64,000 nucleotides of DNA from Zingiber officinale (lineage: Eukaryota > Streptophyta > Magnoliopsida > Zingiberales > Zingiberaceae), in NCBI RefSeq assembly GCF_018446385.1, contig NC_055986.1, forward strand, positions 102,395,344 through 102,459,343. Reading direction: 5' to 3'. The notes under the pieces were generated by a model that saw only the letters and a program-made list of their open reading frames with translations, ran no database searches and was not told the DNA's origin. How positions within the stretch are numbered: the stretch's first letter is position 1; each line of letters starts with the position of its first letter. This document shows, piece by piece, positions 12,568-54,165 of the stretch. The position numbers and the translations under genes were made by a program.

Positions 12568-13446
12568 TGTTGATGTAGTTTACATTAACGATCTAACTCA
12601 TATTTTGATAAATAATAAGTAAATTAAGTTACGTTTTGTTGTGATCTAAACACTTGATTAAGTGTGTAGGAGAAGTCCAGATAGATCGACAGGTTGACCA
12701 GATATCTGGTAGGAAAGCCAGTTAGGTCAACGGGTCGATCGAATAACTGGTACGAAGTCCAAATAAGTCGACGGACTAACTAGATATCTAGCAAGAAGTT
12801 CAACTAGGTCAACAATCCAACCAAATAGCTGGCATAAGTCTAGACAGGTCGACAGGCTGACCGAATGTCTGACAAATTGGTAAGTAAAGATAAGTCACTA
12901 GAGGAAAGTGACCTTGTAAGGATGCGTCCCCGTTGAGGGGCAGTAGGCGTCGGTCCAATTTAGCCCTATTTGAAATCCCTAAACTGAGATCTGGGCTAGT
13001 TCCTGGTCCTGAGAGGACAAGAACTAATTACTACTCTTTAATATTAATTATTATTGTTCTAATATCTGTGTTGTAGGTTATTTGGACTAACATTATTTTG
13101 CAGGATAAAGGAGAAAATTTGTCTTTGGATGAATAGTGTCTGAAGGTGCCTTCAAGCAGTGAAAGCGTCTTTGTACTGTTCATAGAAGGCACATTCCATA
13201 GCTATGGAAATCGCTTTAGTAGTATTCATCGAAGCCATGGAAGGCGCCTTAGTACTGTTCATCGAAGGCGCCTTCCATGGCTATGGAAGACGCCTTCCGC
13301 AGGATAAATTTTGGACGCAATCGTGGATAAGCACCAGGCTATTCAAGATCAAGTTTAACCCATTGGACGTGCATTCAATAGCTATGGAAGGCGCCTTCAA
13401 TAGCTATGGAAGGCGCCTTCCATCCCTTATATAAGACAGTCTCAAG
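12568..13446 (+). repeat. 5' LTR of element E, first part
   Basis: It contains about five tandem stem-loop units at 12672-12880 (outer arms such as CCAGAT/ATCTGG at 12677-12682 and 12704-12709, and CCAGTT/AACTGG at 12718-12723 and 12745-12750). From 13160 to 13425 it has palindromic boxes combining ggcgcc with catagctatgg. A TATA block, the palindrome CTTATATAAG, lies at 13426-13435, shortly before D interrupts the LTR. Confidence 0.75.
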
Positions 13447-15159
13447 TGTTAGGATCCTTTGTACTCGGCTAGAGAGGGGGGTGTGAATAGCCGCCCCAAA
13501 TCGATCGCGTTTCTTCCTACAATTCGTTAGCGCAGCGGAAAAATAAACTAGAAACGAAAAGAAGAATATCAAACCTTAGACGCAGCGATGTAACGAGGTT
13601 CGGAGATGATACTCCTACTCCTCGGCGTGTCCGTAAGGTGGACGAAGCCTACCAATCCGTCGGTGGATGAGTCCCCGGAAACCCGGCTAATAGATACTCC
13701 TTGTGGGTGGAGAAACCTCGCCACAATAACTCGCAACAGCAAGATAGAATACAAGGAATACAAGTAGAAGGACAAGAACAATGTACAAACACTAACTCGC
13801 CTTCTCGTCGACTGCCTGTGAAGCAACAACTTCTCGACAACAGCAGATGATCGACGTCGGAAGCTCACGCGAAGCTTCGGAGGAGCTCAACAAAACTCAA
13901 GCACAGCAGCACTTAGGGACAGGAAGAAGAAGAAAGGAGAAAAACACCAAAGCCTTGATCTCCTTTTATAACCTGCGAAGCTGCCAGCGAAGAAGAAGCC
14001 AGCGGAAAAGACGGAGCGACCCGTTGTGACTCAACGGTCGAACGTGGACCGATCAGGCTCCACCCTGATCGATCTAGGACCCTTCTGATAGGTCTGGGGA
14101 CCGATCAAGCCCTGGCTGATCGGTCCCTAGATCGATCAGACTGCTTCACGACAGTTGCTCAACTTTCTGATCGGTCCCCGACATCGATCGAAGCTTCTTT
14201 GCCTTGTTATCTGATCGGTCACGGACCGATCAGATACAAACGATCACTGATCGGTGCAGACCGATCGAGCAATTTTGCCCAAACCAAGTCCCAAGTCTCC
14301 CAAACCAACATTTGGTCAACCTCGACCTGTTGGTACTTAATTCCTAGCATCGGTCACTCCTTGACCTGCTAGAATTCCTCGCCAAGTGTCCGGTCAATCC
14401 CTTTGACCTACTTGGACTTTCCTCAACACCAGATGTCCGATCATCCCTGATCCATCTGGATTTTCCCTTGCCTGGCTTCACTCACCAGGACTTTCACCTG
14501 GCTTCACTCACCAGGATTTCCACACTGCCTAACATCCCAGTTAGGACTTTCTCACTGCCTGGCTTCACTCACCAGGACTTTCCAACTGCCTAACATCCCA
14601 GTTAGGACTTTCCCTCGTGCCAAGCTCCCTGCTTGGACTTCTCCGTGCCAAGTCTCCATACTTGGACTTTTCCAGTGCCAAGTCTCCATACTTGGACTTT
14701 TCCCGTGCCAAGTCTCCATACTTGGACTTTTCGCGTGCCAAGCTCCCTGCTTGGACTTTTCCAGTGCCAAGTCTCCATACTTGGACTTTTCCCGTGCCAA
14801 GTCTCCATACTTGGACTTTCCGCATGCCAAGCTCCCTGCTTGGACTTTTCCAGTGCCAAGCTCCCTGCTTGGACTTTTCCGGTGCCAAGTCTCCATACTT
14901 GGACTTTTTCCCGAATCAGGTCAACCAGGTCAACCTTACCTACGGTTGCATCAATACTTTCCCAATCATCTATTCTTGTCCCATATCAAGAATAGAACTC
15001 TCTCACGAGTGTCAAACATCAACATGCAACTCAACTAGGTCAATCTTGACCTAAGGTTGCATCAACAATCTTCCCAAGTCAAACATCAAAATACAACTCG
15101 AGTCAAGTCAACTCGAGTCGGGTCAACCAGGTCAACCTTGACCTAAGGTTGCACCAACA
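13447..15159 (-). repeat. 3' LTR of element D (left copy)
   Basis: It runs from TGTTAGGATCC to GCACCAACA (1713 bp). On the minus strand the order is U3 with stem-loop arrays (14310-14910), gatcggtc boxes (14040-14265), a TATA box (ggttataaaagg, reverse of 13966-13977) and then R/U5. Confidence 0.92.
14612..14910. repeat. 29-bp stem-loop tandem array in D 3' LTR
   Basis: Ten units of about 29 bp each carry a short inverted repeat. Two versions alternate: CCAAGTctccatACTTGG and CCAAGCtccctGCTTGG. Both arms change together. The array reads open in several frames on both strands, but this is a by-product of the repeat length and not a gene. Confidence 0.93.
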
Positions 15160-17078
15160 ATCTCCCCCTTTTTGATGTTTGACAAAACCATAATCAAGTT
15201 AGGTTAATCCGATAACCTAACTTAGGTTTTCCAACCATCTTCCAATGTCCAATGTTCTTTCCTTGAACATTCTCTGGACATTCTCCCCTTAGGTTAACCC
15301 GATAACCTAACTTGGGTTCTCCAATAATTCTCCCCCTTTTTGACACACATCAAAAAGTATTCCAATGTTCTTCCTCGAACATTCCTTGACATTCTTCCCC
15401 TAGCTTAGGTTAACCCGATAACCTAACTTGGGTTTTCCAATAATTCTCCAATGAACGCTCTCCCCTTTTTGACACACATCAAAAAGAAAAAGGAGAGTAT
15501 CAAGGTCAAGAGTTTCTTCCTAATGAAAGTCCCATACCTTTCATTGAAACTCTTAATTTCCCCCTTGATACTAAACTCAACAATCAACTTAGTGATAATC
15601 CCATATCACTAATCCTCAAAAGTCTTAAGGAGTAAAAACTCCCCCTAAAAGTCAACTCCCCCTTGACAATTAGGTAAAAACTCCCCCTAAAGGTCAACTC
15701 CCCCTTGACCATTGCACCAACAATGTCTTGGAGAGTTTCAAACCTTTAGAAATCCACAAAACCTAACTTCCAGCTGAAATTTCAGACCAACAGCTGAAAA
15801 TCAGAAACTGGCACGCTCTGATCGGTCCCCAAACCGATCAGAATCCCCCTGGATCGGTCCCCAGACCGATCCACGCTTCACTGATCACACTGGATCGTCA
15901 CTGATCGGTCACCAGACCGAACAGAACTTCCCTGGATCGGTCCGGTGACCGATCCACACTCTGAAATCAGAGATTTCTGATTTCCCTTCCCGGAAATTCA
16001 GAAACTCCTAAAAAATTCCAGAAAATTCGAAAAAATGTGAAATTTTGAGGATACATTCCTCATAACATATACTATCATGGAAAAATAGTTTTCTATGAGA
16101 ATAACTTCCATTTTCAAATCTTGATACAAAATTCAAAAACTTTGAAATAGTTCAAAGTTAAGTCAACTTTGTATCACAATGTTCAATGATGAATGCTATC
16201 ACTAGGAAAGCTTCATCAAGGTTTTTCAAAACAATTTTGAAATGATTTCAAACCCTTTAATTTGGGACCACAATCTTAGGGCTATATGTACATGACTTGT
16301 ACACAAGCTTTCCCTATGATCCCCCATATCTTGAATTAGGCTCATCTAGGTACAAGAGCTATGCACCTTGATCCTAATTCATGATCCTAATATCTCACAC
16401 ACATCTAGAGTGTATCAAGCACATCCATGTCAATTTTGATGTGAGATATGGGTTTAGGTATCTTAGGCTAAGGTCTCATGCATTTTCTAAACACAAATTT
16501 GATCTCAATATCAAAATGTGTTTTTCATCCTTAAATCAATTCAATTGATTATTAATGCAAGAGATGATGACATGGCATAAAATGGTATCATAAATGAGAA
16601 CATGTGCCAATGTCATGATGTCATGGCATAAAGTTTGAAACTAAACTAACACATGACATATAAACTAGCCTAAGTATTATCATGACATTTCAAATGATAA
16701 TAAGACTAAATATGATGTCATGACATGTGAGGGCAAACAATCATGGCAAGATTTAGCATAGATAAATATACCTAGATTACCTATCTAAGTATCCTTAACC
16801 ACTTTGCTAACTTAAAATCTAACCCTAGATTGCCCATATATCCCTAAGAGAAAACCAAAATCCCAATTATGGTATTTCTCTAGGTTTTCTTAAATTGTGC
16901 CAAATAAGATTGAAATCGATATTTTTCAAATATGGCACAATTTACTCTTTAAGGAGTAAATAATAATTCTTTTTCATTTTCAAAGGTTATCAAAACCTTG
17001 AAAATGCTCCTTGAGTGTCAATTTCCTCAAAGTTGGGTTAACTACCCTTCTAATTGGAGTTGACACTCTCTAACCCAT
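15160..17078 (-). other. Non-coding 3' interior of element D
   Basis: The pyrimidine tract at 15160-15172 is the polypurine primer on the minus strand. Three copies of 'aggttaacccgataacctaacttgggtt'-type repeats lie at 15190-15450 (written here only as a type). gatcggtcc...gaccgatc boxes at 15817-15955 match those in the LTR. The remainder is AT-rich and no gene is seen. Confidence 0.6.
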
Positions 17079-18552
17079 CTATGGGGTAGAGAAGATGCTC
17101 CTAGGAACCCAATACCTATTAGAGCTCATTGGGTTCACTAAATATTCATTAGGGATAACTTCCCTAGCAACCCTCCTAATGACCCTCTTAGGCTTTGAAG
17201 CCTTGGTCATTTGGGTCTCATCAAGGTCAACTATAGGGGCGACTCCTTGTGACCTTGGTAGTGGTCTTCCTAGCCCTAGGTTTTGTTCCATAATCGAATG
17301 GAACATTATGATAAGTGGGCTTGACCACTTGGGACTTAAGTTTGTGACCCAAACCCTTTTTGTCCTTGGACATTGGTTTTTGACCCTTAAACCCTAGAGA
17401 TGACTTCTCCAAGTTCTTAAGAGCATTTTCCAAAGTATCAAGTCTTGACCTCAAGACTTGATTCTCCTTCTCTAGTACCTCAATTTTTGATTTGTCATTT
17501 TTCTTTGAGGCATTCCTAGGCATGTGTCTAGTTGATTTGGGATTCCTACCTAGGTTCTCCTTAACCTTAGATGAGGTAATTCTAGGGTTGGCTTTCCTAG
17601 TGTTATCCTTATCTAGGCTCACATGTTTGGCACCTAAGCATGTGTATCGATTTCTAATGTTATCATGCTTATCATTATTGACTAGTGCAATAAAATTTCT
17701 AGCATGCATCTTACTAGTATTGCACGAATGAGACTTAAATGATACCTTAGGGTTTGCCTTAGCTCCCCCTATAGAAGTGCTCGGTCTCTTGCCCTTGTGA
17801 GGTTGCCTCCCCCTCGGACAATGACTCCGATAATGTCCCCTTCGCTTGCATTGGAAGCACACCACGTGCTCCTTGCCCTTGCGTGTCGGGACTCCGGCTA
17901 CCTTGACCTTTGGCGCCGGTGGAGTCTTCCTTACCCTCTTTGGACACTTACTCTTGTAGTGCCCAAATTCCCTACACTCAAAACACATTATATGCAATTT
18001 ACTTGAACTTAAAGTGTTTGAGTTACCTAGGGTTGAGGATGAATGGATGCTCTCTTCTTCATCCCTCCCGGAGGTAGAAGCTTCTTCTTCGTGCTCCGAT
18101 CTTGAAGAAGAAGAACTCACTTCCTCTTCTTCTTTAGATGTTGAGTAACCCTCAACTTCCAATTTGCTCTCTTCATGATGTGAGCTACTTGGCTCACTAG
18201 ACTCCTCTTCATGGCTTGAAGTGGAGCTCTCTTCATGGTACTTGGCCAAGTTATCCCATAATTCCTTGGCATTGTTGTAACCTATCTTACACAAGATGTT
18301 AGTAGGCAATGAAAATTCAATTATTTTCGTTACCTCTTTGTTGATTTCGGATTTGTGAATTTGTTCTCTTGTCCACTCCTTCTTCTCAAGTGGTTTTCCT
18401 TCCTTATCCACCGGAGGAGTAAATCCTTCTTGTACACAAAACCAATTCATTATGTTAGTCATAAGAAAATACTTCATCCTTACCTTCCAATACGCGAAGT
18501 CGCCGCATTCGTAGAAGGGTGGAATGGTGACATCTTCTCCATAGAGATCCAT
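17079..18552 (-). CDS. Copia gag polyprotein of D, C-terminus frameshifted
   Basis: A long frame of 441 codons begins at 18552 with MDLYGEDVTIPPFYECGDFA and ends at 17227. The capsid-like part has W/K-rich and ELWDNLAKYHEE motifs, then a Ser/Glu-rich acidic linker, two CCHC zinc knuckles (CFECREFGHYKSKC and CFQCKRRGHYRSHC) and a basic tail with a coiled-coil stretch. The expected ending (...IPNEYLVNPMSSNRYWVP...) is present in the next frame from 17306 to 17079, so one frameshift lies near 17230-17300. The zinc knuckles would bind the element's RNA for packaging. With no pol in the element, replication would need enzymes in trans. Confidence 0.85.
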
Positions 18553-18599
18553 TCTCTAGCTTTGCTCCCACGGGTGTTGATCCGATGAAGAGCGAACCT

Positions 18600-18615
18600 T
18601 CGCTCTGATACCACT
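18600..18615 (-). other. Primer-binding site of D
   Basis: gctctgataccactt is the reverse complement of the standard plant Met-tRNA primer site and abuts the 5' LTR at 18616. Confidence 0.9.
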
Positions 18616-20384
18616 TGTTAGGATCCTTTGTACTCGGCTAGAGAGGGGGGTGTGAATAGCCGCCCCAAATCGATCGCGTTTCTTCCTACAATTCGTTAGC
18701 GCAGCGGAAAAATAAACTAGAAACGAAAAGAAGAATATCAAACCTTAGACGCAGCGATGTAACGAGGTTCGGAGATGATACTCCTACTCCTCGGCGTGTC
18801 CGTAAGGTGGACGAAGCCTACCAATCCGTCGGTGGATGAGTCCCCGGAAACCCGGCTAATAGATACTCCTTGTGGGTGGAGAAACCTCGCCACAATAACT
18901 CGCAACAGCAAGATAGAATACAAGGAATACAAGTAGAAGGACAAGAACAATGTACAAACACTAACTCGCCTTCTCGTCGACTGCCTGTGAAGCAACAACT
19001 TCTCGGACAACAGCAGCAGCTGATCGACGACTGGAAGCTCACGCGAAGCTTCGGAGGAGCTCAACAAAACTCAAGCACAACAGCACTTAGGGACAGGAAG
19101 AAGAAGAAAGGAGAGAAAAAACACCAAAGCCTTGATCTCCTTTTATAACCTGCGAAGACAGAAGCCAGCGGAGAAGAAATCTAGCCGTTGCGTCGCAACG
19201 GCTAGTGCCCTGATCGGTCTGTGGACCGATCAGGGAACCTACTGATCGGTCCCCAGACCGATCAGCATGTTTCACAGAAAGTTGCCCAACTTTCTGTTCG
19301 TTTCCTGATAGGTCAATCTGATCGGTCCACGGACCGATCCCACCTCAGGTGGTAGCGTCCCTGATCGGTCCGGAGACCGATCGGTAAGCCCACAGAACCA
19401 TGATTGCCTTCTGTTTGTTATCTGATCGGTCACCAGACCGATCAGATACACAAACGTATCACTGGATCGGTCTGCAGACCGATCCAGAGCTTGGTTTTTG
19501 CCCAAACCAAGTCCCAAGTCTCCCAAACCAACATTTGGTCAACCTCGACCTGTTGGTACTTAATTCCTAGCATCTGGTCACTCCCTTGACCTGCTAGAAT
19601 TCCCCGCCAAGTGTCCGGTCAATCCCTTTGACCTACTTGGACTTTCCTCAACACCAGATGTCCGATCATCCCTGATCCATCTGGATTTTCCCTTGCCTGG
19701 CTTCACTCACCAGGACTTTCACCTGGCTTCACTCACCAGGATTTCCACACTGCCTAACATCCCAGTTAGGACTTTCCCATGCCTGGCTTCACTCACCAGG
19801 ACTTTCCAACTGCCTAACATCCCAGTTAGGACTTTCCCATTGCCTGGCTTCACTCACCAGGACTTCTCCGTGCCAAGTCTCCATACTTGGACTTTTCCAG
19901 TGCCAAGTCTCCATACTTGGACTTTTCCCGTGCCAAGTCTCCATACTTGGACTTTTCGCGTGCCAAGCTCCCTGCTTGGACTTTTCCAGTGCCAAGTCTC
20001 CATACTTGGACTTTTCCCGTGCCAAGTCTCCATACTTGGACTTTCCGCATGCCAAGCTCCCTGCTTGGACTTTTCCAGTGCCAAGCTCCCTGCTTGGACT
20101 TTTCCGGTGCCAAGTCTCCATACTTGGACTTTTTCCCGAATCAGGTCAACCAGGTCAACCTTACCTACGGTTGCATCAATACTTTCCCAATCATCTATTC
20201 TTGTCCCATATCAAGAATAGAACTCTCTCACGAGTGTCAAACATCAACATGCAACTCAACTAGGTCAATCTTGACCTAAGGTTGCATCAACAATCTTCCC
20301 AAGTCAAACATCAAAATACAACTCGAGTCAAGTCAACTCGAGTCGGGTCAACCAGGTCAACCTTGACCTAAGGTTGCACCAACA
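18616..20384 (-). repeat. 5' LTR of element D (right copy)
   Basis: It has the same ends as the left copy (1769 bp). Stem-loop units run from 19528 to 20125. The gatcggtc box region (19206-19490) is longer and more regular than in the left LTR. The TATA box on the minus strand is the reverse of 19137-19148. Confidence 0.92.
19528..20125. repeat. Stem-loop series in D 5' LTR
   Basis: Consecutive inverted repeats with different arms: CCAACA/TGTTGG (19528-19533, 19551-19556), CCTAGC/GCTAG, CCAAGT/ACTTGG (19607-19612, 19635-19640), CCAGAT/ATCTGG (19654-19659, 19679-19684), CCTGG/CCAGG, CCTAAC/GTTAGG (19753-19758, 19765-19770), then nine 29-bp units with CCAAGT/ACTTGG or CCAAGC/GCTTGG. The first four enclose a second inner pair, GGTC/GACC or GATC/GATC. 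Confidence 0.9.
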
Positions 20385-20389
20385 TCAAG

Positions 20390-20894
20390 AAGCCATTAAT
20401 ACAACACTGATATATGAGCTACTACGCATCTGTTTAAGCATTTGACTACTCCTGGTTTCTGCTACAACTCTACGGCAAAGCTGTTGTGCCCGATGACTGC
20501 TCCGAGGAGTTCCGATCGCGCCCGATAGACCGATATCAACACAAGTGCTCTTATTTCAATCCTTAAGTGTTGGCAACGTTTTTTTAATTACTACAAATGG
20601 ACAAGTGCAGTGTGTTGCACTTGACCTAATCTTTCTTGTACTCGATTATCTCTTCTGGAGATACCGAAAGAGGTTTATAGTGAATTACCCATCGATAGGT
20701 CCACGGGACCTGAGTCTTGGAGTAGAAGTCGTCGAAGGCTCCGAACTAAGTAAAAACCACTCATATTTTCTGGTGTTTGGCTTGCTTTCTTATTTACTTT
20801 CCGCTGCATACACTTTGATTTTAAAATGAGAAAAAAAAGTTTTTAAAAATCATGTGATTCACGCCTCCTTTCACGTGTGCGTATAATTCCAACA
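20390..20894 (+). repeat. 5' LTR of element E, second part
   Basis: The LTR resumes after the TCAAG duplication and ends ...attccaaca at 20894. It shares 'ggagtagaagtcgtcgaaggctccgaac'-type wording with LTR C near 46530. The primer site that follows (ttgtatcagagcagg) has one change from the standard. Confidence 0.75.
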
Positions 20895-21149
20895 AATTGT
20901 ATCAGAGCAGGTTTTGCTCTAAATTGGTGTAACCACCAATCAAGCCGGGGGAATCGTTTTTAGACTTCTTTGTTTTCCGTCTTCTATTTGAATTGGTAAA
21001 ACTTTACCTATTCAAATAATTTTGTCGTTCGATCTTAACTTGAAGTTGGTGCAACACCTGTCAAGTACTTTTATATTTTTTTCTCAAACTCTGCTAATCC
21101 AAGACCAAGTCTTGGCACCTTTTTTTAATTTTCTATCTACAGCTGTGAA

Positions 21150-37785: not shown

Positions 37786-38848
37786 TGTTGGAGCAATGCC
37801 AATGGTCCGCGGGACCATGTGTTTTTGTGTTTGGGCAAAGGGTTTAAGTTAGGTTTACCCTCGTTATTTGATATGTGTACTTGAGTTGTGCAGGACTGCA
37901 GGTGACACATGTGACTCAGGTTGACGGCTTCGGGTCCGATGAAGGATGGCATTGAGGACAAGCCGCGGGCTTGAATGCATCTGAGGGATCGTGGACAAGG
38001 CAGCAAGGACAAGGGCCGAGGGAAGCGACTTCGAGGCATACGCGAAGGATGGCATTGGAGACAAGCCGCAGGCTTGGATGCATCCGAGGGACGAGAGCCA
38101 AAGGAAGTAGGCTTAAAGGAAAGAGGTCAAGGCTGCAAAGAAGAGTCAAGTAAGTCGTGAGGGTCCGAGTGCGAGTGAAATGTACTCGGGATGGGAAACC
38201 CTAAGTTTAGGGTTGTACCAGTCGACTGGTACTGGGACCAGTCGACTGGTGGTGAGCACAGAAGCATTCTGTGCCCGAAATGGCTGGGATCAGTCGACTG
38301 GTCATGGACCAGTCGACTGATAGATAGCCGTTGGAGTGCCGTTGTGGCTGGCACTAGTCGACTGGTGCATGAACCAGTCGACTGGTAACGGGCAAATCAG
38401 CAAGGCTGATTTACCCAAGCTCTATAAGAAGGAGCTTGGTATGGCCGGCCAAGGCGACGAAATTAGACTTGGTTAAAGCCTAATTAGTAGTCACAAGAGT
38501 GCTCAAGTGTTTGTGGAATCCAAGAGGTCTTGGTGTGTTGTGGTGAGGTTTCTCCACCCACAAGGAGCGACTTGAGATAGCCGGAGTTTGCCGGGGGCTA
38601 ATCCACCGAAGGATCGGGATCGTCCACCTTACGGACAGTCGTGGAGTAGGAGCCATAATCTCCGAACCACGTTAAACAACGTGTTAGCTTGGTTTGCATC
38701 TCTTATTCTTGTCTTAAGCTTTCTTTGTATTCATATTTGTAGTTAGTATTAGATTTCCGCTGCGTAAACTAACAATAGTGTAGAAAGCGACTATTTGGGG
38801 GTGCCGTCTATCCAACCCCCCTTCAAGCCGACCACCGATCCTCCAACA
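37786..38848 (+). repeat. 5' LTR of element B
   Basis: TGTTGGAGC to CTCCAACA, 1063 bp. Six cagtcgactg-type palindromes lie at 38218-38392. The TATA motif (tataagaag, 38423-38431) is flanked by CCAAGCTC (38415-38422) and GAGCTTGG (38432-38439). Primer site tggtatcagag follows at 38851-38861. Confidence 0.95.
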
Positions 38849-38912
38849 AGTGGTATCAGAGCGAGGACACACTTCATTGGGCTAACCGCCGAGAAGAGCA
38901 ACGCATAAGAAG

Positions 38913-40553
38913 ATGGCCGGGTTGATTGTCCCTCCAAAGTTCGAAGGAGGAAGCCTTGGGGACATCACGTATTGGATGATGAGGATGGAGGTTTTCTTCG
39001 ACACGAATTGGGACACCATGTTGGTGGTAAATGAACCATTCGAAGTCCCTAAAGACAAGAAAGGGAAGAAGCTACGACCACAACATCGGAAGGAGGAGCA
39101 AACCACACGGTCAAAGGCAAACGATAAGGTAATATCTATTTTGATTGATATTTTGCCTAATCATGTGATAAATGGTGTCGGTGAGTATAAGAACGCCCAC
39201 GAGTTGTGGAGCAAGGTGAAGATGGTTATACAAGAAGAACCTAAACCTACACAAGAAAAAGAAGAACCCAAGGAGATGGGTTTAATTGCTCAAGTTGAGG
39301 AGGAGCAAATGGAAGTTGAGCCATGCTCAACATCCGTGGAGGAGAAGGAAGATGAAGCATCATCAACATCCTCAAGGGTTGAAGAAGAATCCAAGACGGA
39401 TGAAGAAGAGGTCTTGGAGGTCAACCTAGTGAGCACCTCCACCGAAGCTAAGTTAAAGGACCACATTGTATGCTTCGGGTGCAATAAGAAAGGACACTAC
39501 AAGAGTAGATGTCCTATGGGTAAGAAGAAGGTAATTCCTAAACCCAATCAAGTTATTTTGAATACTAACATGGGTTGTAGGAATAAAGAAGCCCAAAAGA
39601 AGGAGAAGAAATGGCACATAGTGTGCTTCACGTGTGGTGAGCGGGGTCATTACCACACCAAATGCCCAAAGAAGAAAGAAATCAAGAAGTTGGCGCATTT
39701 GAAGAAATGGGAGAAGAAGAGAAGCAAGAGTCAAGGGGGAGCTTCAAGGGTAAGGGAGGTATACCCTAACTTGAAGGTTAATTCAAATTTAAACTCCTCC
39801 ATGCATGTTAGGAAAAATAATGTTAATCATTATATGCCCATGCAAAATTTTGGTTTCAAATATCATGATAGGAGTAGGGTAATTGTAGATCAAAATCCTA
39901 GGAGACCCATTCATGAAAAATCTAGAAATGGTAGACCTAAGGAGACCCAAGGCATTAATCCCAAGAAGGGGAGACATATGCCTAGAAAGGGTAGGTCTAG
40001 GAATGTTCAATGTGGACAAGTTAATTCTAGGGTTAGGAACCTAGAGAGGGAGAATCAAGCTTTGAAGTCAAAGCTTGATAATTTAGAGAAATTTCTTAAG
40101 AGATTCACTATTGGATCTAAGGAATTAAGGATGATGTTGGGTAGCCAAAGACCCAACAATGATAGATCGGGCTTGGGATACCGATCTAGTCCCTCCAAGG
40201 CCAATGAGAGTTCATATGCTAGGGTGGCAAATGATCATAGCAAGGGAGAGTCCTCCAAAGCTAAGGGAAAGTCTTATGCTAGGGTTGCATATGACTATAG
40301 CAAGGAGAAACCAATAAATGGCAAGGGAAAGTCATTTAAAAGTAAGGAAAAATTAACCAAGGACAAAGTGTCCAAGGTTAAGAAAGTTAGGTTTGTAGGC
40401 CAAGTGTCACCGGAGGTGCACCGATGTGGCCTAGTTACAATAGATGAGTCACCTAGGGAGGTGACTAAGGTAAAGAGCTCTAGGGGGAGATCCAAGAGTC
40501 AATTTGGGACCCATGGCCAATGGATCTCAGGTGGGTTCTACTTGGGAGTCTAG
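38913..40553 (+). CDS. Copia gag polyprotein of B, intact
   Basis: An open frame of 546 codons starts at the first ATG after the primer site, MAGLIVPPKFEGGSLGDITY. An N-terminal capsid-like part (to about residue 115, with YKNAHELWSKVKMV) is followed by a Glu/Ser-rich acidic linker, two CCHC zinc knuckles (CFGCNKKGHYKSRC near residue 189 and CFTCGERGHYHTKC near 236), a basic region, a coiled coil (residues about 375-395) and a Lys/Ser-rich tail containing the repeat SYARVA. Gag would package the element RNA. It is the only unbroken retroelement gene in the window, which suggests selection or recent insertion. The layout matches D gag, so B and D are related. Confidence 0.9.
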   Translation: MAGLIVPPKFEGGSLGDITYWMMRMEVFFDTNWDTMLVVNEPFEVPKDKKGKKLRPQHRKEEQTTRSKANDKVISILIDILPNHVINGVGEYKNAHELWSKVKMVIQEEPKPTQEKEEPKEMGLIAQVEEEQMEVEPCSTSVEEKEDEASSTSSRVEEESKTDEEEVLEVNLVSTSTEAKLKDHIVCFGCNKKGHYKSRCPMGKKKVIPKPNQVILNTNMGCRNKEAQKKEKKWHIVCFTCGERGHYHTKCPKKKEIKKLAHLKKWEKKRSKSQGGASRVREVYPNLKVNSNLNSSMHVRKNNVNHYMPMQNFGFKYHDRSRVIVDQNPRRPIHEKSRNGRPKETQGINPKKGRHMPRKGRSRNVQCGQVNSRVRNLERENQALKSKLDNLEKFLKRFTIGSKELRMMLGSQRPNNDRSGLGYRSSPSKANESSYARVANDHSKGESSKAKGKSYARVAYDYSKEKPINGKGKSFKSKEKLTKDKVSKVKKVRFVGQVSPEVHRCGLVTIDESPREVTKVKSSRGRSKSQFGTHGQWISGGFYLGV

Positions 40554-41662
40554 AGGAGCCATGGAGTGTGCCAAAAGGTTTGGAGATGGATTTGAGTCTC
40601 AAACCTAGGGATTTGGCACACATGGTTTGTGTTTCATGCAAGAAATATGACATTTGGGGTCATATAGCATGATAATTGGTTTTAGATGTATAGATGTCAT
40701 ATAAACCAATGCTAGGGATGCATTTTGGGTTGGTATGGGCAAATACATCAAAAGGAAGCCAAAACTAGGACTTTAGGTCAAGGTTCAATTGAACCATTTA
40801 GCTAGTTTTGGATTTTGTGTCAATCTTGGGATTGGTGATAGATACATTTTGTAATGTATTTTTCCCAAGTAGACACTGGTACAATAGACCTCTCCACAAA
40901 ATTTGGGAATTTTTGGAGGTCTAGGGAATTACTGGTGCATTTCTAAAGTTGGCCTGAAAATGCTGATTTTTTCAGAAAAAGGGTACCAGTGTTTTTCGAC
41001 CACAGAATGCTTCTGTAAGGTTGTGTCGAAGGGGGCAGTCGACTGGCACTTGGGCAGTCGACTGATACCAGCCTGATATTATTTTTCAGAGCTGTTCTTG
41101 ACCATGTCAACTCACTTAGATGTATGGGATCCAAGGGGGATTAATACATGAGTTTAGGGTCAGTTTGGATGATAAGTTTTCAACAATTGGGATATTGTTG
41201 GAGAACTTTTTGGATGTTAGGCAAAGGGGGAGAATTAAGGTTTAAATTGGGAAAACCTTAAGTGCCTTTGTGTAGGGGGAGCCTTGGGATAGGTTCTTAA
41301 AAAGCCCGTTGTAAAATCCTAGCTCATTGGGGAGTTTAGGTGTAGGGGGAGCCTTGGGATAGGTTCTTAAAAAGCCCGTGGTAAAATCCTAGCTTAATGG
41401 GGAGCGTAGGTGTAGGGGGAGCCTTGTGATAGGTTCCAATGCTTGGTGCATTGTTTCGGCGGTTGCCAAGTGTGTAGCCTTGGCAACGTAAGTCCATTCG
41501 GCGTTGTAAGTCCAAGTGTGTAGCCTTGGCATCGTAAGTCCATTCGGCGGAGTAAGTCCAAGTATGTAGCCTTGGCATCGTAAGTCCATTGTATTAGCAT
41601 GTTTATTTTCTATATGTTTTCCTTAACTTAAACGTATTGCCAAACACCAAAAAGGGGGAGAT
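40554..41662 (+). other. Non-coding 3' interior of B with repeats and polypurine tract
   Basis: A cagtcgactg pair lies at 41037-41066. A 62-bp repeat (gtgtagggggagccttgggatagg type) occurs about 2.5 times at 41280-41440, and a 'gtaagtccattcggcg' repeat three times at 41488-41590. The purine tract aaaaagggggagat (41649-41662) precedes the 3' LTR. Confidence 0.75.
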
Positions 41663-42686
41663 TGTTGGAGCAATCCCAATGGTCCGCGGGACCATGTGTT
41701 TTTGTGTTTGGGCAAAGGGTTTAAGTTAGGTTTACCCTCGTTATTTGATATGTGTACTTGAGTTGTGCAGGACTGCAGGTGACACATGTGACTCAGGTTG
41801 ACGGCTTCGGGTCCGATGAAGGATGGCATTGAGGACAAGCCGCGGGCTTGAATGCATCTGAGGGATCGTGGACAAGGCAGCAAGGACAAGGGCCGAGGGA
41901 AGCGACTTCGAGGCATACGCGAAGGATGGCATTGGAGACAAGCCGCGGGCTTGGATGCATCCGAGGGACGAGAGCCAAAGGAAGTAGGCTTGAAGGCAAG
42001 AGGTCAAGGCTGCAAAGAAGAGTCAAGTGAGTCGTGAGGGTCCGAGTGCGAGTGAAATGTACTCGGGCTGGGAAACCCTAAGTTTAGGGTTGTACCACGA
42101 TCGGTGGTGAGCATGTACATTCGTGCTCGAATGGTTGGATCACCGACCGTCATGGGACCACCGATCGATAGATAGCCGCTTGAGTGCTAGGCACCACGAC
42201 CGGGTGCATGGACCGCCGATCGGTAACGGGCAAATCAGCAAGGCTGATTTCCCCAAGCTCTATAAGAAGGAGCTTGGTATGGCCGGCCAAGGCGACGAAA
42301 TTAGACTTGTTAAAGCCTAATTAGTAGTCACAAGAGTGCTCAAGTGTTTGTGGAATCCAAGAGGTCTTGGTGTGTTGTGGTGAGGTTTCTCCACCCACAA
42401 GGAGCGACTTGAGATAGCCGGAGTTTGCCGGGGGCTAATCCACCGAAGGATCGGGATCGTCCACCTTACGGACAGCCGTGGAGTAGGAGCCCTAATCTCC
42501 GAACCACGTTAAACAACGTGTTAGCTTGGTTTGCATCTCTTATTCTTGTCTTAAGCTTTCTTTTGTATTCATATTTGTAGTTAGTATTAGATTTCCGCTG
42601 CGTAAACTAACAATAGTGTAGAAAGCGACTATTTGGGGGTGTCATCTATCCAACCCCCCTTCAAGCCGGCCACCGATCCTCCAACA
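41663..42686 (+). repeat. 3' LTR of element B, with different palindrome boxes
   Basis: Outside 42090-42230 it is nearly identical to the 5' LTR. In that segment the cagtcgactg boxes are replaced at matching positions by cgatcgg or ccgaccg-type boxes. The TATA stem (42253-42260 and 42270-42277) is unchanged. Confidence 0.93.
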
Positions 42687-45604: not shown

Positions 45605-46660
45605 TGTTGGTGCGGGTAGCACTAACGGTCTAACCTAGGTTTTGATGAATGACAAATAGGTTAAGTTAGTTTTGTTGTTGTCTGACACTTTGATCGAGTG
45701 TGCAGGGGAAGTCCAGACAGGTCGACGGGCTGACCGGATGTCTGGCACGAAGTCCAACTAGGTCGACGGGCTGACCGGATAGCTGCGAGAAGTCCAAGTG
45801 GGTCGACGGGCTGACCGGACGCTTGGCGAGAAGTCCAGCTAGGTCGACGGGCTGACTAGATAGCTGGCGAGAAGTCCAGACGGGTCGACGGGCTGACCGG
45901 ACGTCTGGCAGGTAAGTGAGGTAAGTCACTGGAGGGGAGTGACTGCGAGGACGCGTTCCCGGGAAGGGAACATTAGGCGTCGATCCAGCTTAGATCCATT
46001 TCGGATATCTAAGTCGAGATCGTGACTAGATTCCGGTCTCGGAAAGACGGAATCTAAATCATATTTTTACTGTTAATTCTATTTCATAAATTGTGCTAAC
46101 AATCTGTGTTGCAGAATACATATGTGCCTCGGACTAACTCTATTTTGTAGGAAAGGAAGTTTCTGGAAACAGGAGGTCCGGGCGCCCGGAGGTCCAGGCG
46201 CCGGAAGTGATCCGGGCGCCCAGAGTTGATTAGACCTGCCACGTCGCACCAGGGCGCCCGGAAGGGATCCAGGCGCCCGGAGCAGCATATAAAAGAAGCC
46301 CCAGGGATGGAGCTTCTTCCATCATCAATCTGAGAACTCTTCTACTGCTGGTCCTGCTACTCTACGTTCCTGCGACGCCAACAAAGCTCCGACAAAGTGC
46401 TCCTTCGATTTTTAGTTAATTTCTTTGTCGGTATTACTTTGTTTCACTAGCATTTCCTGTATTCATTTTGTAATTATATTCGAATTGCTAGTAATTGCCC
46501 AACGAAAGTGGTCAAGGACCACGGGCCTTCGAGTAGGAGTCGTCACAGGCTCCGAACGAAGTAAAAACAACTGTGTTCATTTACTTTTCTGCTGCGTATT
46601 TTTACTCGACTTTTCGAATCGATATTCACCCCCCCTCTATCGAACGATCACGGTCCTACA
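45605..46660 (+). repeat. 5' LTR of element C
   Basis: TGTTGGTGCGG to GGTCCTACA, 1056 bp. Five stem-loop units of about 41 bp lie at 45711-45910, then gggcgccc boxes at 46180-46280 and a TATA box (atataaaag) at 46287-46295. Primer site tggtatcagagcc follows at 46663-46675. Confidence 0.93.
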
Positions 46661-46932
46661 AGTGGTATCAGAGCCAAGTTCCGCTCTGATTTGGTGCAAC
46701 CACCAATCAGACTGGGGGTGAAATTTTTTTTTCTTTTTTTCTGTGGTTTTCAGTTCAACGCTTAATTCTAAAACTGGTGTATCAGTACTTTAATATTTTC
46801 TTCAATTAATCTAAATTGGTGCAACACGAATCTAGATTTTTTTTAACTAATTTTTCTCTCTTCCCGCACTACTAATCCAAGACCAAGTCTTGGGATTTTT
46901 TTTCTTTTCTCTCTTTTGTGCGCAGGACTAAA

Positions 46933-48606
46933 ATGTCGCAGACAGAAGGATTCAGCACAGTACGACCTCCACTTTTCAACGGGGACGATTTTCCGTACTG
47001 GAAGAAGCGCATGTAGGTTTACCTCAAAACAGACTTCGACCAGTGGATGAACGTTACGAGACCCTATAAAATTCCAGCAGACACTTCCGGGAATATACTA
47101 GATCCTGAAGACTGGACAGCTGATTTGAAGAAAAAGGCGTCAACAGAGAATAAACCAATCAACACTCTACAGTGCGGATTAACAAGAGAAGAACTAATTA
47201 GAGTCGGTCCACACAAAAACGCTAAAGAACTGTGGGACAAATTGATCGAGCTGCACGAAGGAACGAGCGACGCCAAGGTAACAAAACGAGACCTGCTTTT
47301 AAATAAAATTTTTAATATAAAAATGCAGGAAGGTGAAACGGCGAGTCAGCTCCACACGAGGATCAAGGACATCCTCAACGGGCTTCATGCGATAGGCCAC
47401 CAGATGGAAAATAGAGACTTAATAAGGTACGCATTAAATGCTTTTCCACGTAATAGTTTGTGGGCATCAATAGTGGTGCCTACAAAATTTCTAAAAATCT
47501 TTCTAAGTTAAAGTTAGATGAGCTTTCCTGTGAATTAGAATTACTTGAACAAACTAATGCTGGAGCCAAGAAAGGTATAGCTTTATTTGCAGGTTCCACC
47601 AAAGAAAAGAAAAGCAAACCTGAATTTGAAGAAGACTCCGACCAAGACTCCGAAGACGAAGAACACCTGGTGAACTTGGTAAGAAAAATGTTCACCAGGA
47701 GAAAAAGGAGTTTCAGCAAAAATGACCTTCAAAAGATCAGTTCTCCCTCAGAACAAAAGAACGTGACTTGCTACGGCTGCAACAAAAAGGGACACTACAA
47801 GAACAAATGCCCAAAACTGAAGTTCGACAAATCTAAGCCAACCAAAAAGAAGGCCCTCAAAGCAACGTGGGACGACTCCTCGGACGAATCGGAGGAAGAA
47901 GAGCAGAAACATCAGAGCCACCTCGCACTGATGGCCCGCGAAGCTGAAACAGAAGACGAGTCGGAAGATGAAGACGGGTCTGAACCCGAAACAAGCCACG
48001 AGTCCGTACTCGTTTCCGAAGGCTCGAACGAGGTATATTTTAATTTAAACAAAATTTTTTTTAGAATTATTTCCTGTTTAAATAATAAAGTAATTAAAAT
48101 AGAAAATGAAAACAAATCACGTCTTGAGGAAATCAAAACCTCAAGGAACAAATAAAAAATTCAAATCCAACTCAAGATCTAACACTTGAGGAGGAGAATT
48201 TATCATTAAAAAATGAAATAAACAATTTAAAAGAGATATTAGAAAAAATCACAACAAGATCAAAAAATCTAGACTTAATCCTAAATAATCAAAAAGCATG
48301 CTATAATAAAACCGGACTAGGATATAAGTCGAATTCAAATAAAACCTTCAAATCATTAATAACCCAATACAAATCAACCAATCTAGCTTGGGTTCCGAAA
48401 GCGTGCTTAACCACGCAAATAGGACTTAATCAATATTATATACCTAAAGAAAAAATACATTATATAAAATCGAATAAACCAAACCAAAATCCAAAATACA
48501 AACCTAAATCAAAATCAAAATGTAAACACTTTAAAAATCAACAAAATTATCACCAAGTTAACCATAACTATAAAAAGAATCGACACAAACCTAAAACCAA
48601 AACTTA
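46933..48606 (+). pseudogene. Copia gag of C, one stop and two frameshifts
   Basis: The ATG at 46933 begins MSQTEGFSTVRPPLFNGDDF. A TAG replaces codon 28 (47014-47016). The frame continues from 47047 (MNVTRPYKIPADTSG ... AKELWDKLIELHEG) to a 1-base deletion near 47475, then 47460-48155 in the next frame with one CCHC knuckle (CYGCNKKGHYKNKC, about 47770-47811) and an acidic segment. A second frameshift near 48150 leads to a coiled coil and the tail (YNKTGLGYKS ... AWVPKACLTTQIG) ending about 48606. E gag has the same domain order. Confidence 0.85.
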
Positions 48607-49133
48607 AATTAATAGCCAATAATTCAGGGGGAGGCTCCAGAATAGCTGGCACCTCCAAAAGTAACTTACCCGACAGGGTAACCCAAAACAAACTAACCCG
48701 GCAGGGTAATTAGGATTAGAGACCATGTTTAACTTGAATCATGGTACTGGTGAAGTTTTTGCATGATAGTACGTTAGGGAAACTTGGGCATCGCATGTCT
48801 AGAAAGATATGGCTTCGATCTGGTGCATTTGGCCAAGTGGAACTGACCGAAGCTACCCTTAAATGAATCCTAACCAGTTAGACCAAGATTTAGTACTAAG
48901 CTCCGTGGATAGGACTATTCGGAAAACCTCGAAAGGTTGATTACTACTAATGACGTCCATGTGACTCACCAAGCTTAGAAGTTTATCCGAAGAATGCCTA
49001 TTTGTGGAGACCAAAGCTAAATCTGAATCTAACACAAGTTAAACCAAAACTCCATAATTAATCCAATTTCATCTCGCAAAATCATAGGATTCCCTGATTG
49101 ATAATATAGATCGGGTGAGATGAATAAGGCTTA
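48607..49133 (+). other. Non-coding gag-pol spacer of C
   Basis: It has no usable frame but is clearly conserved with E (22656-23330), so it is an ancestral part of this family and not a random insertion. Confidence 0.65.
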
Positions 49134-49490
49134 AATTTTAATTTTAAACTTAAAAATTAATTTCAAAATTTTAATTTTAAACTTAAAAATTAATTTCAAA
49201 ATTTTAATTTTAAACTTAAAAATTAATTTCAAAATTTTAACTTAAAAATCAATTTCAAAATTTTAATTTTAAACTTAAAAATTAATTTCAAAATTTTAAT
49301 TTTAAACTTAAAAATTAATTTCAAAATTTTAATTTTAAACTTAAAAATCAATTTCAAAATTTTAATTTTAAACTTAAAAATTAATTTCAAAATTTTAATT
49401 TTAAACTTAAAAATCAATTTCAAAATTTTAATTTTAAACTTAAAAATTAATTTCAAAATTTTAATTTTAAAACTTAAAAATTATCATAAA
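49134..49490. repeat. 36-bp AT-rich tandem array before pol of C
   Basis: Units of 'aaaattttaattttaaact' + 'taaaaattaatttc' type occur about ten times, with only attaat/atcaat variation. It reads open on the minus strand as a Lys/Ile/Phe repeat, but this is an artefact. Confidence 0.95.
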
Positions 49491-49520
49491 AGGACTAACT
49501 TTAAATCCTACTTACTGTAG

Positions 49521-52520: not shown

Positions 52521-53090
52521 GATTTTTTTAAAAAATTGTTTTCAAAATAAATGTTTTCAAATTATAAGTTAAACATGTTTGTTTTCAAAACTTTCCATTT
52601 TTAGATTTTCAAAAATAGTTTTGGCCTTAGACTAGTTTTAAATCCTTAGAAAGCATGTACTCATAGGACTAGTTTTTGAGCATCTCACCAACACCTTAGG
52701 TTTACCTTGCTTGTGTCTGACAAACATAGAAAGGGGTGAGATGCATAGGCCAACTGTCTGGACTTAAGATGCTTATTTCAATGCATCAGCATAAGTCTGG
52801 ACGTTAAATACAAATCAGACAGTAATCAGATTAAGATCATCAGTCAAGTCAAACACTGACTGTTTATAATCACCTTAATCTGACTAACCAAGTGAAAGCT
52901 ACTATCTTCTGATAGTTAGTTAGTACCTAATTGGTTAGACAACTGTTTAAATTTAAGTATCAAGTTCAGGGGGAGAAATTAATTAAAATTCTGTGTGTTT
53001 GAAAAATGCTTTTTAAAACTAACTTATGTTTGAACATTTGTTTACAAAAAGTTAAATTTAACTAAGTGTTTGAAAAACTTGGAAGTTTAA
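52521..53090 (+). other. 3' interior of C; polypurine tract region deleted or moved
   Basis: No gene. A purine run (cagggggagaaatta) at 52967-52981 lies more than 100 bp before the recognisable LTR, where it would normally be adjacent. Confidence 0.6.
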
Positions 53091-54165
53091 TCCCACCTAA
53101 TTTGATGAATGACAAATAGGTTAAGTTAGTTTTGTTGTTGTCTGACACTTTGATCGAGTGTGCAGGGGAAGTCCAGACAGGTCGACGGGCTGACCGGATG
53201 TCTGGCACGAAGTCCAGCTAGGTCGACGGGCTGACCGGATAGCTGGTGAGAAGTCCAAGCGGGTCGACAGGCTGACCGGACGCTTGGCGAGAAGTCCAGC
53301 TAGGTCGACGGGCTGACTAGATAGCTGGCGAGAAGTCCAGACGGGTCGACGGGCTGACCGGACGTCTGGCAGGTAAGTGAGGTAAGTCACTGGAGGGGAG
53401 TGACTGCGAGGACGCGTTCCCGGGAAGGGAACATTAGGCGTCGATCCGGCTTGGATCCATTTCGGATATCTAAGTCGAGATCGTGACTAGATTCCGGTCT
53501 CGGAAAGACGGAATCTAAGTCATATTTTTACTGTTAATTCTATTTCATAAATTGTGCTAACAATCTGTGTTGCAGAATACATATGTGCCTCGAACTAACT
53601 CTGTTTTGCAGGAAAGGAAGTTTCTGGAAACAGGAGGTCTGGGCACCCGGAGGTCCAGGCGCCCGGAAGGGATCCGGGCGCCCCGAGGTGAATTTTATCC
53701 AGGCCGAGTCGTCGCTACATGGAGTTCGCTGATTAGACCTGCCACGTCGCACCAGGGCGCCCGGAAGGGATCCAGGCGCCCGGAGCAGCATATAAAAGAA
53801 GCCCCAGGGATGGAGCTTCTTCCATCATCAATCTGAGAACTCTTCTACTACTGGTCCTGCTACTCTACGTTCCTGCGATGCCAACAAAGCTCCGACAAAG
53901 TGCTCCTTAGGTTTTTAGTTTATTTCTTTGTCGGTATTACTTTGTTTCACTAGCATTTCCTGTATTCATTTTGTAATTATATTCGAATTGCTAGTAATTG
54001 CCCAACGAAAGTGGTCAAGGACCACGGGCCTTCGAGTAGGAGTCGTCACAGGCTCCGAACGAAGTAAAAACTACTGTGTTCATTTACTTTTCCGCTGCGT
54101 ATTTTTACTCGACTTTTCGAATCGATATTCACCCCCCCCCTCTATCGAACGATCACGGTCCTACA
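53091..54165 (+). repeat. 3' LTR of element C, 5' end deleted
   Basis: It matches the 5' LTR from 'ttttgatgaatgacaaatagg' onward. Stem-loop units lie at 53171-53369, boxes at 53640-53780, TATA at about 53790. A 45-bp segment (53690-53735) is absent from the 5' LTR. Confidence 0.9.

Follow-up and report, generated by a model that had tools for sequence, protein, structure and literature searches.

A tandem hairpin array with co-changing arms in the U3 region of a Sirevirus-type Copia element of Zingiber officinale

Element D and its neighbours

The window analysed here, a 64-kb stretch of Zingiber officinale DNA, holds nested LTR retrotransposons of plant type, and all hairpin copies considered below come from this one window. 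The elements concerned are called D, E, G and X, and the coordinates of their features are collected in Table 1. D is a Sirevirus-type Copia element, assigned from the non-coding hallmarks of that group, which according to Bousios et al. 2010 (PMC2829016) comprise multiple PPTs, an AT/TG attachment site, a PPT inverted repeat, CGG-CCG boxes, a TATA box and a C-rich end. Copies of TCAAG lie on both sides of D, one at 13442-13446 and the other straight after CCAACA (20384). Adjoining the 5' LTR, near 18610 on the minus strand, is TGGTATCAGAGC, the putative PBS; the LTR/PBS junction, AACAAGTGGTATCAGAGC, resembles the junctions of E and X within the window.

The hallmarks themselves are found as follows. 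Ten purine runs of at least 8 nt containing GGGG (the terminal PPT and nine upstream) are present between 15706 and 15161. The attachment site at the 3' LTR junction reads GGGGGAG-AT-TGTTGG, which has the AT/TG form of Sireviruses, and the terminal PPT is bordered by a Sirevirus-like inverted repeat with perfect 14-bp arms, GTCAAACATCAAAA / TTTTGATGTTTGAC. The right arm of this repeat lies ~65-70 bp inside the LTR; the mean distance in published Sireviruses is 28 bp (PMC2829016, in excerpt). E has a PPT inverted repeat too, less perfect than that of D. Boxes of the form CGGTC-NNNN-GACCG (19208-19486), together with the TATA-like box at 19147, correspond to the RM boxes of Sireviruses; they begin ~900 bp into the LTR, and those of published Sireviruses 200-400 bp into it (same excerpt). 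The C-rich signal near the 3' end of the LTR, CACCCCCCTCTCT, is likewise of the Sirevirus kind. The GATCGGTC-GACCGATC palindrome recurs in the D linker, at 15820-15954, ~650 bp upstream of the PPT.

Because TATAAAAGG lies at 19147 on the minus strand, the hairpin array falls inside U3; the part of the LTR upstream of this motif, up to 20384, is taken as U3, with a presumed transcription start. The original prediction had placed the array in the U3 region of an LTR, and the minus-strand orientation, the TATA-like box downstream, and the PBS and PPT in their expected places bear this out. The gag-like frame of D contains a second CCHC knuckle, recognised by eye, and a comparison of this frame with solved structures gave no match. 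Both it and an open frame of E (38886-40553), the latter judged by eye, are long and gag-like; a pol frame was not seen in D or E at the frame lengths listed, which for D means none of at least 80 aa.

Table 1. Features of elements D, E, G and X in the window
Feature	Position	Strand	Remarks
Element D, Sirevirus-type Copia	13447..20384	-	LTR pair 90% identical; TCAAG target-site duplications on both sides
D 5' LTR	18616-20384	-	
D 3' LTR	13447-15159	-	
D gag-like open frame, 442 aa, CCHC zinc knuckle	17227..18555	-	PF00098 E 6.8e-4, 20.1 bits, just below the cutoff of 20.8 bits
D terminal PPT and AT, then 3' LTR start TGTTGG	15160..15173	-	
D putative TATA box TATAAAAGG	19139..19147	-	second copy in 3' LTR at 13970
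D RM-type palindrome block, GATCGGTC-NNNN-GACCGATC	19208..19486	.	between hairpin array and TATA-like box
D 5' LTR, four long hairpin units	19528..19684	-	spacing 41-44 nt
D 5' LTR, fifteen short hairpin units	19696..20127	-	spacing ~30 nt
D 3' LTR, copy of the array	14305..14902	-	one unit differs as a whole hairpin
G 5' LTR array, five homologous units	12677..12872	+	two with perfect 7-bp stems; partly decayed
E short units CCAAG...CTTGG, three	41466..41575	+	in linker just upstream of PPT
Family X element	45605-54165	+	GACTT at both outer ends; Copia-order integrase and reverse transcriptase
X 5' LTR array, five 41-nt hairpin units	45713..45908	+	two damaged
X 3' LTR array, five perfect 7-bp hairpins	53173..53369	+	

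The palindrome blocks of these elements show some peculiarities of their own. Between the two LTRs of D, the RM block beside the TATA-like box (19180-19499 vs ~14000-14270) is 41% diverged with 59 gap columns, and four other segments are 0-3.6% diverged; local conversion, hypermutation or an assembly error is a possible cause. The palindrome block of the E LTRs (38211-38395 vs ~42070-42230) is 27% diverged and the sequence on both sides of it 1.3-1.4%; ACCAGTCGACTGGT boxes occupy one LTR and CGATCGGT-type boxes the other, and the AGAAT target-site duplications of E are intact. Divergence is mildly raised in the GGGCGCC block of X (4.4% plus 42 gap columns vs 0-2.3% elsewhere).

The hairpin units and their relatives in other families

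Between 20127 and 19528, the 5' LTR of D contains 19 tandem hairpins, all of them fully Watson-Crick paired over 5-7 bp, with starts 26-44 nt apart. At least seven successive inverted repeats with six different arm pairs had been predicted; all six pairs are present, and a seventh, CTAGCA/TGCTAG (19567-19597), had been overlooked. Each unit consists of a spacer ending in AAGT or similar, followed by a variable outer stem of 5-7 bp that mostly starts with CC and ends with GG. The short units carry the arms CCAAGT/ACTTGG (6 units), CCAAGC/GCTTGG (3), CCTGG/CCAGG (4) or CCTAAC/GTTAGG (2), and their spacer resembles GGAAAAGT. In the long units the outer arms are CCAGATG, CCAAGT, CTAGCA and CCAACA, each with its complement, and they enclose a more constant inner stem; the kept inner pair foreseen for four units is indeed there, as GGTC/GACC in three and GATC/GATC in one. 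A GGG or GGAG loop is found in 14 of the 19 D units (and is absent from the other five), in 9 of 10 X units and in 1 of the 5 decayed G units. Just beyond the array, at 19490-19511, is an 8-bp hairpin, CTTGGTTT/AAACCAAG.

The array is repeated in the 3' LTR of D with one difference: a CCAAGC-type hairpin at 14620-14636 occupies the position of the CCTGG-type hairpin at 19843-19861 in the 5' LTR, and the spacer upstream of it is intact. Since the whole hairpin differs between the two LTRs, arms can co-change through replacement of a unit. Counting perfect stems of at least 7 bp was tried as a detector of the array and rejected for D, where 1 was observed against a shuffle mean of 0.6; there is no excess because the D arms are mostly 5-6 bp long. 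The X 3' LTR array has 5 such stems (shuffle mean 0.29).

A long unit of the same plan is present in the U3 regions of X and G, so the pattern extends to two other families. In the X 3' LTR the arms are, in order, CCAGACA, CCAGCTA, CCAAGCG, CCAGCTA and CCAGACG (four different, units 2 and 4 being alike), and the inner part, GGTCGAC(G/A)GGCTGAC(CG/TA)GA, is almost constant. At 53080-53110, the X 3' LTR is without the opening bases seen in the 5' LTR and has no PPT directly beside it; the junction thus appears rearranged, even though GACTT is present at either outer end of X. In G, the 5' LTR belongs to an older copy and was cut in two when D inserted, the parts being ~12580-13446 and, past D, 20390-20895. 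The G PBS is at 20900, and the sequence after it is 68% identical to its X equivalent; G also has palindrome boxes of its own, of the GGAAGGCGCCTTCC type and with one 18-bp stem, just left of the D insertion (13233-13282 and 13374-13420). Two of the E units differ from a short D unit by 2-3 mismatches over 24 nt (0 expected from 100 shuffles). These units lie on the plus strand, the same strand as E; the module is absent from the E LTR. Every strong match to the module is in the sense orientation, on the minus strand for D and the plus strand for X and G. A G in the loop hardly varies across the aligned units, and the inner GGTC-N8-GACC is a conserved dyad.

The relationship between the families rests on two kinds of comparison. 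With BLASTN, the 5' LTR of D matches that of X in the module only, by two overlapping alignments (best E 4.7e-10); no similarity at E 0.1 links the D LTR to the left-hand portion of the G LTR, and the D and E LTRs have part of U5 in common. The second is a search of the whole window, filters off, with a covariance model whose training rows came from X and G alone; E-values from models of this kind are rough. Each of the four long units in the D 5' LTR is recovered on the sense strand, at E 1.7e-5 to 8.2e-4. In the D 3' LTR, three long units are recovered at the same E-values and one, carrying two single-base deletions, at E 0.66; outside the module, the best match has E 0.19. When the same X and G rows are used without base pairs, the four long D units are found at E 0.0025, 0.054, 0.095 and 0.48. 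Because the E-values are worse without base pairs, structure carries much of the signal of the model. Exact-pattern scans of viral contigs and genome contigs gave no match, viral contigs held no relatives of the X pol end or the D gag, and Rfam gave 0 matches at the gathering score for 13440-20900.

Pairing and change of the arms

The outer stems vary from unit to unit, yet keep Watson-Crick pairing, and the long unit is common to three LTR families. In a permutation test of this pairing, the 3' arms were swapped 200,000 times among distinct hairpins; only distinct arm pairs were used, and those of X were taken from the better-kept 3' LTR. The D arms (27 Watson-Crick pairs and 1 GU pair at 28 variable positions) were matched by 32 of the 200,000 permutations. 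For X alone, which has four distinct arms, all 20 variable positions are paired, as was the case in 8,305 permutations; for G alone, 23 of 25 are paired (3,360 permutations). When D and X are combined, 35 Watson-Crick pairs and 1 GU pair occupy the 36 variable positions, and no permutation equals this; the same is true of D, X and G together (49 Watson-Crick, 1 GU and 2 unpaired at 52 positions). Thus, the predicted joint change of the two arms stands well above permuted arms.

Shuffled alignments give a more divided answer. Three alignments were used: A1, with 19 units (five from each X LTR, five of G, and the four long units among the 19 of the D 5' LTR; unit X5_2 was entered one base short, and is full in A2); A2, with 12 X and G units out of 15, which omits three from the X 5' LTR that duplicate units of the 3' LTR; and A3, with one D unit of each kind (8 out of 19) and two of the three E units. 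In A1, 94.8% of cells are paired vs 81.8% in shuffles, and the covariation score is 0.478 vs 0.210, a value reached by 0 of 500 shuffles. Indeed, the covariation score, the share of paired cells and the number of cells changed on both sides were each reached by 0 of 500 shuffles in all three alignments. The number of pairs changed on both sides was matched by 8 (A1), 88 (A2) and 2 (A3) of 500 shuffles, and the number of further pair types by 52, 234 and 177. Measures of the covariation-score type can be inflated by relatedness, and the two counts are described as less prone to this; consequently, the case is at its weakest on how many of the paired changes are independent. Set against shuffled sequence, three of five measures favour co-changing arms, and the two counts (changed pairs, pair types) are less decisive. 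With this qualification, confidence is high that the array exists and that its arms co-vary above chance, if slightly less than it might have been, because two of the five shuffle measures are indecisive.

Relatedness among units also raises the question of ordinary tandem-repeat growth, in which a few ancestral hairpins were amplified and a co-change inherited from few events has been over-read. In favour of this, D has seven distinct arm sequences, with 15 of its 19 units in four arm classes and many of them plain tandem copies, and X units 2 and 4 carry the same arms. The shuffles, moreover, make no correction for relatedness, and up to 88 of 500 reached the pair count and up to 234 the count of pair types. 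However, all seven distinct D arms and the four X arms pair in one frame, and control alignments of A1 in which the partner was slid, keeping relatedness, have 12.8-36.8% paired cells vs the 94.8% observed. Growth of repeats is thus an improbable explanation of the whole pattern.

Among the X units, the variable arm columns are 52% identical, the 19 inner nt 94% and the 8-nt spacer 78% (arms vs inner columns, P 8e-5); in G, the arms are 72% identical vs 64% for the inner part, so that they are not more variable. The 5' and 3' LTRs of X differ at three places in the outer arms (two substitutions and one gap), all one-sided. With 3 of 3 differences one-sided (n=3), no coupling is seen in passive chromosomal copies; such differences fit decay after insertion, as expected, and arm coupling seems to belong to the replicating phase of the element. 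Comparison of X with G covers 35 arm pairs, of which 6 are changed on both sides (all re-paired), 6 on one side and 23 not at all. The double changes have P 0.002 with random sites and P 0.024 with a position-aware null; a context-specific background predicts 3.7 both-sided and 14.4 one-sided changes, and P for at least 6 both-sided is then 0.16. C>T and G>A account for 17 of the 18 changes, which makes decay of the methylation type a real alternative explanation. These double changes were therefore dropped as main evidence, their excess being insecure under the stricter nulls, and the comparison favours two-sided change only weakly.

Paired changes can also arise from mutation without selection. 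Template switching is a published, selection-free route to them, which can create and repair perfect stems (PMC8794818, in excerpt); at quasi-palindromes, and together with duplication or conversion of whole units, it would copy one arm onto the other. The hairpin swapped as a whole between the D LTRs, with its upstream spacer unchanged, is what such a process would leave behind, as is the scarcity of GU intermediates in undamaged copies (1 in 36 positions of the D and X arms). An inverted loop, however, is not apparent in the aligned units, and the persistence of inner stem, loop and spacer across otherwise unrelated LTR families is unexplained by mutation alone. The uncoupled arm differences of the X LTRs also count against it, but they bear on chromosomal replication only, and not on reverse transcription. 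A purely mutational origin is accordingly judged unlikely, though clearly less so than repeat growth.

RNA-level and DNA-level readings of the array

The strength and strandedness of folding were predicted for both arrays. The D stems have a mean predicted probability of 0.24 in the sense RNA and 0.49 in the antisense RNA; with DNA parameters, these values are 0.58 and 0.74. As RNA, both strands of the D array fold better than shuffled sequence, with a z-score of -4.8 for sense and -6.8 for antisense (20 shuffles each). The five X stems have predicted sense RNA probabilities of 0.99, 0, 0.96, 0.01 and 0.23, and the X sense fold has a z-score of -1.6, with 12 of 200 shuffles as good. Thus, thermodynamics gives no preference to the sense RNA. 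Paired changes had originally been read as the usual sign of a selected structure, in RNA or in cruciform DNA. The co-change of the arms does exceed permutation; the step from there to a selected RNA structure is weakened by the poor sense stems (0.24 vs 0.49), the hairpin replaced as a whole in D, the selection-free route of template switching and the weak result of X vs G.

Folding of the miRNA-like kind was scored in 110-nt windows, with MFE below -40 kcal/mol as the threshold (as in PMC10760457). None of 100 windows of the D array passes (the best is -39.6). In X, 14 of 19 windows of the 3' LTR array and 2 of 19 of the 5' LTR array do so; among 581 background windows the proportion is 4.3%, and the RM block of D passes with a mean of -50.7. 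As a miRNA-like hotspot, the array falls short in D but may qualify in X.

These results bear on the possibility that the array works as DNA. In that case the palindromes would be promoter-distal boxes of U3, serving as dyad binding sites or extruded hairpins and perhaps also feeding small-RNA silencing, an explanation that is possible but on the unlikely side; the same reserve applies to the corollary that the array belongs to the palindrome-rich cis region that Sireviruses are known to have. The array does lie upstream of the RM-type boxes and the TATA-like box, its stems are more probable with DNA parameters, GU pairs are nearly absent, the inner GGTC-N8-GACC is a conserved dyad, and the X windows (14/19 and 2/19) pass the folding threshold. 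Precedents exist in the palindromic RM boxes upstream of TATA and in small RNAs that map to palindrome clusters (excerpts of PMC2829016 and PMC10760457, respectively). A sequence-specific factor, however, leaves the freely varying outer arms unexplained, and it is the RM block, not any of the 100 D array windows, that passes -40 kcal/mol. Related units of E are found outside the LTR, although published RM boxes occur in the linker too.

Tentatively, and at less than even confidence, the hairpin units are proposed to work as RNA structures within the 3' region of the genomic RNA. While the element is active, what is kept would be the fold rather than the sequence of the arms, and the stem would display its G-rich loop, or else the inner stem, to a protein partner, for which the CCHC gag of the element itself is the obvious candidate. 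New arm sequences would arise by duplication of units, by replacement of whole units and probably by template switching in reverse transcription. The constant sense orientation, the G-rich loop and the conserved inner stem favour RNA, as do the related units near the RNA 3' end, both inside (D) and outside (E) the LTR. This proposal is weakened by the poor formation of the sense stems, by fold z-scores that are better for antisense, and by the weak z-score of the X sense fold. RNA stems usually tolerate some GU pairs, and the near absence of these weakens it further, as do the counts of both-side changes and pair types reached by shuffles, the unclear excess in X vs G, the G arms being no more variable than the inner part, and the 5 of 19 D loops that lack GGG or GGAG. 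On balance, a role at the RNA level is placed slightly ahead of one at the DNA level and of a purely mutational origin. A more specific version, in which the array would be a multi-copy packaging or strand-transfer element in U3 whose interchangeable stems show the G-rich loop to gag, and which outlived the other LTR sequence between families, is doubtful, more so than either of these two alternatives; what was observed of a retroviral-type packaging hairpin is the G content of the loops and a CCHC gag.

Relation to known systems and meaning

Sirevirus RM boxes are high-copy palindromic repeats in U3 and linker, upstream of TATA; within one element they have nearly one sequence (66.5-100% identity), with a CGG-CCG core in all but one of the entries of Table 3 (PMC2829016, in excerpt). 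D resembles the elements described there in carrying boxes with a CGGTC-GACCG core at 19208-19486 and 15820-15954. In contrast, the arms of its hairpin array vary between units, the more constant parts being inner stem, loop and spacer, and CGG/CCG is present in 0 of its 7 arms, so that the array is not a set of RM boxes in the sense of one high-identity palindrome with a CGG-CCG core. The Sirevirus PPT inverted repeat is a single structure around the PPT, whereas the D array has many units. In Tnt1, a tobacco Copia element, the U3 repeats are conserved by sequence as activator boxes; the stem sequence of the D array, by contrast, is not conserved. Tandem repeats in U3 and a symmetric box are nevertheless a point of likeness to Tnt1 (excerpts of PMC3601003 and PMC2829016).

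A 2016 study (Genome Res 26:226, as cited in PMC10760457 and PMC5311732) is reported to have described a hairpin-forming, highly variable LTR region that is a hotspot of small-RNA mapping; the maize motif is CACCGGAC-NNN-GTCCGGTG (PMC10760457, in excerpt). The excerpts of the two citing papers say nothing, for this LTR region, of arms that co-vary from one tandem unit to the next. Among the matches listed, no published description of LTR arrays with variable, co-changing arms was found, although the 2016 paper itself may contain one. A search for the six motifs as letters returned, among the matches listed, only the 10-mer CTGATCGGTC, in unrelated work, and a search for covariation together with packaging in LTR retrotransposons found nothing in the library covered.

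Palindromic LTR repeats are thus already known in Sireviruses, and it is the variable, co-changing arms that set the D array apart. To our knowledge, the cis-acting RNA and DNA structures of plant LTR retrotransposons are little charted. Here, a U3 module keeps its pairing while its letters change, and is common to LTRs that have otherwise diverged beyond recognition. Arms that change together around an inner part that is more alike suggest that shape matters more than letters. The module is a concrete target for structure probing, for small-RNA mapping and for deciding whether paired changes are due to selection or to template switching.
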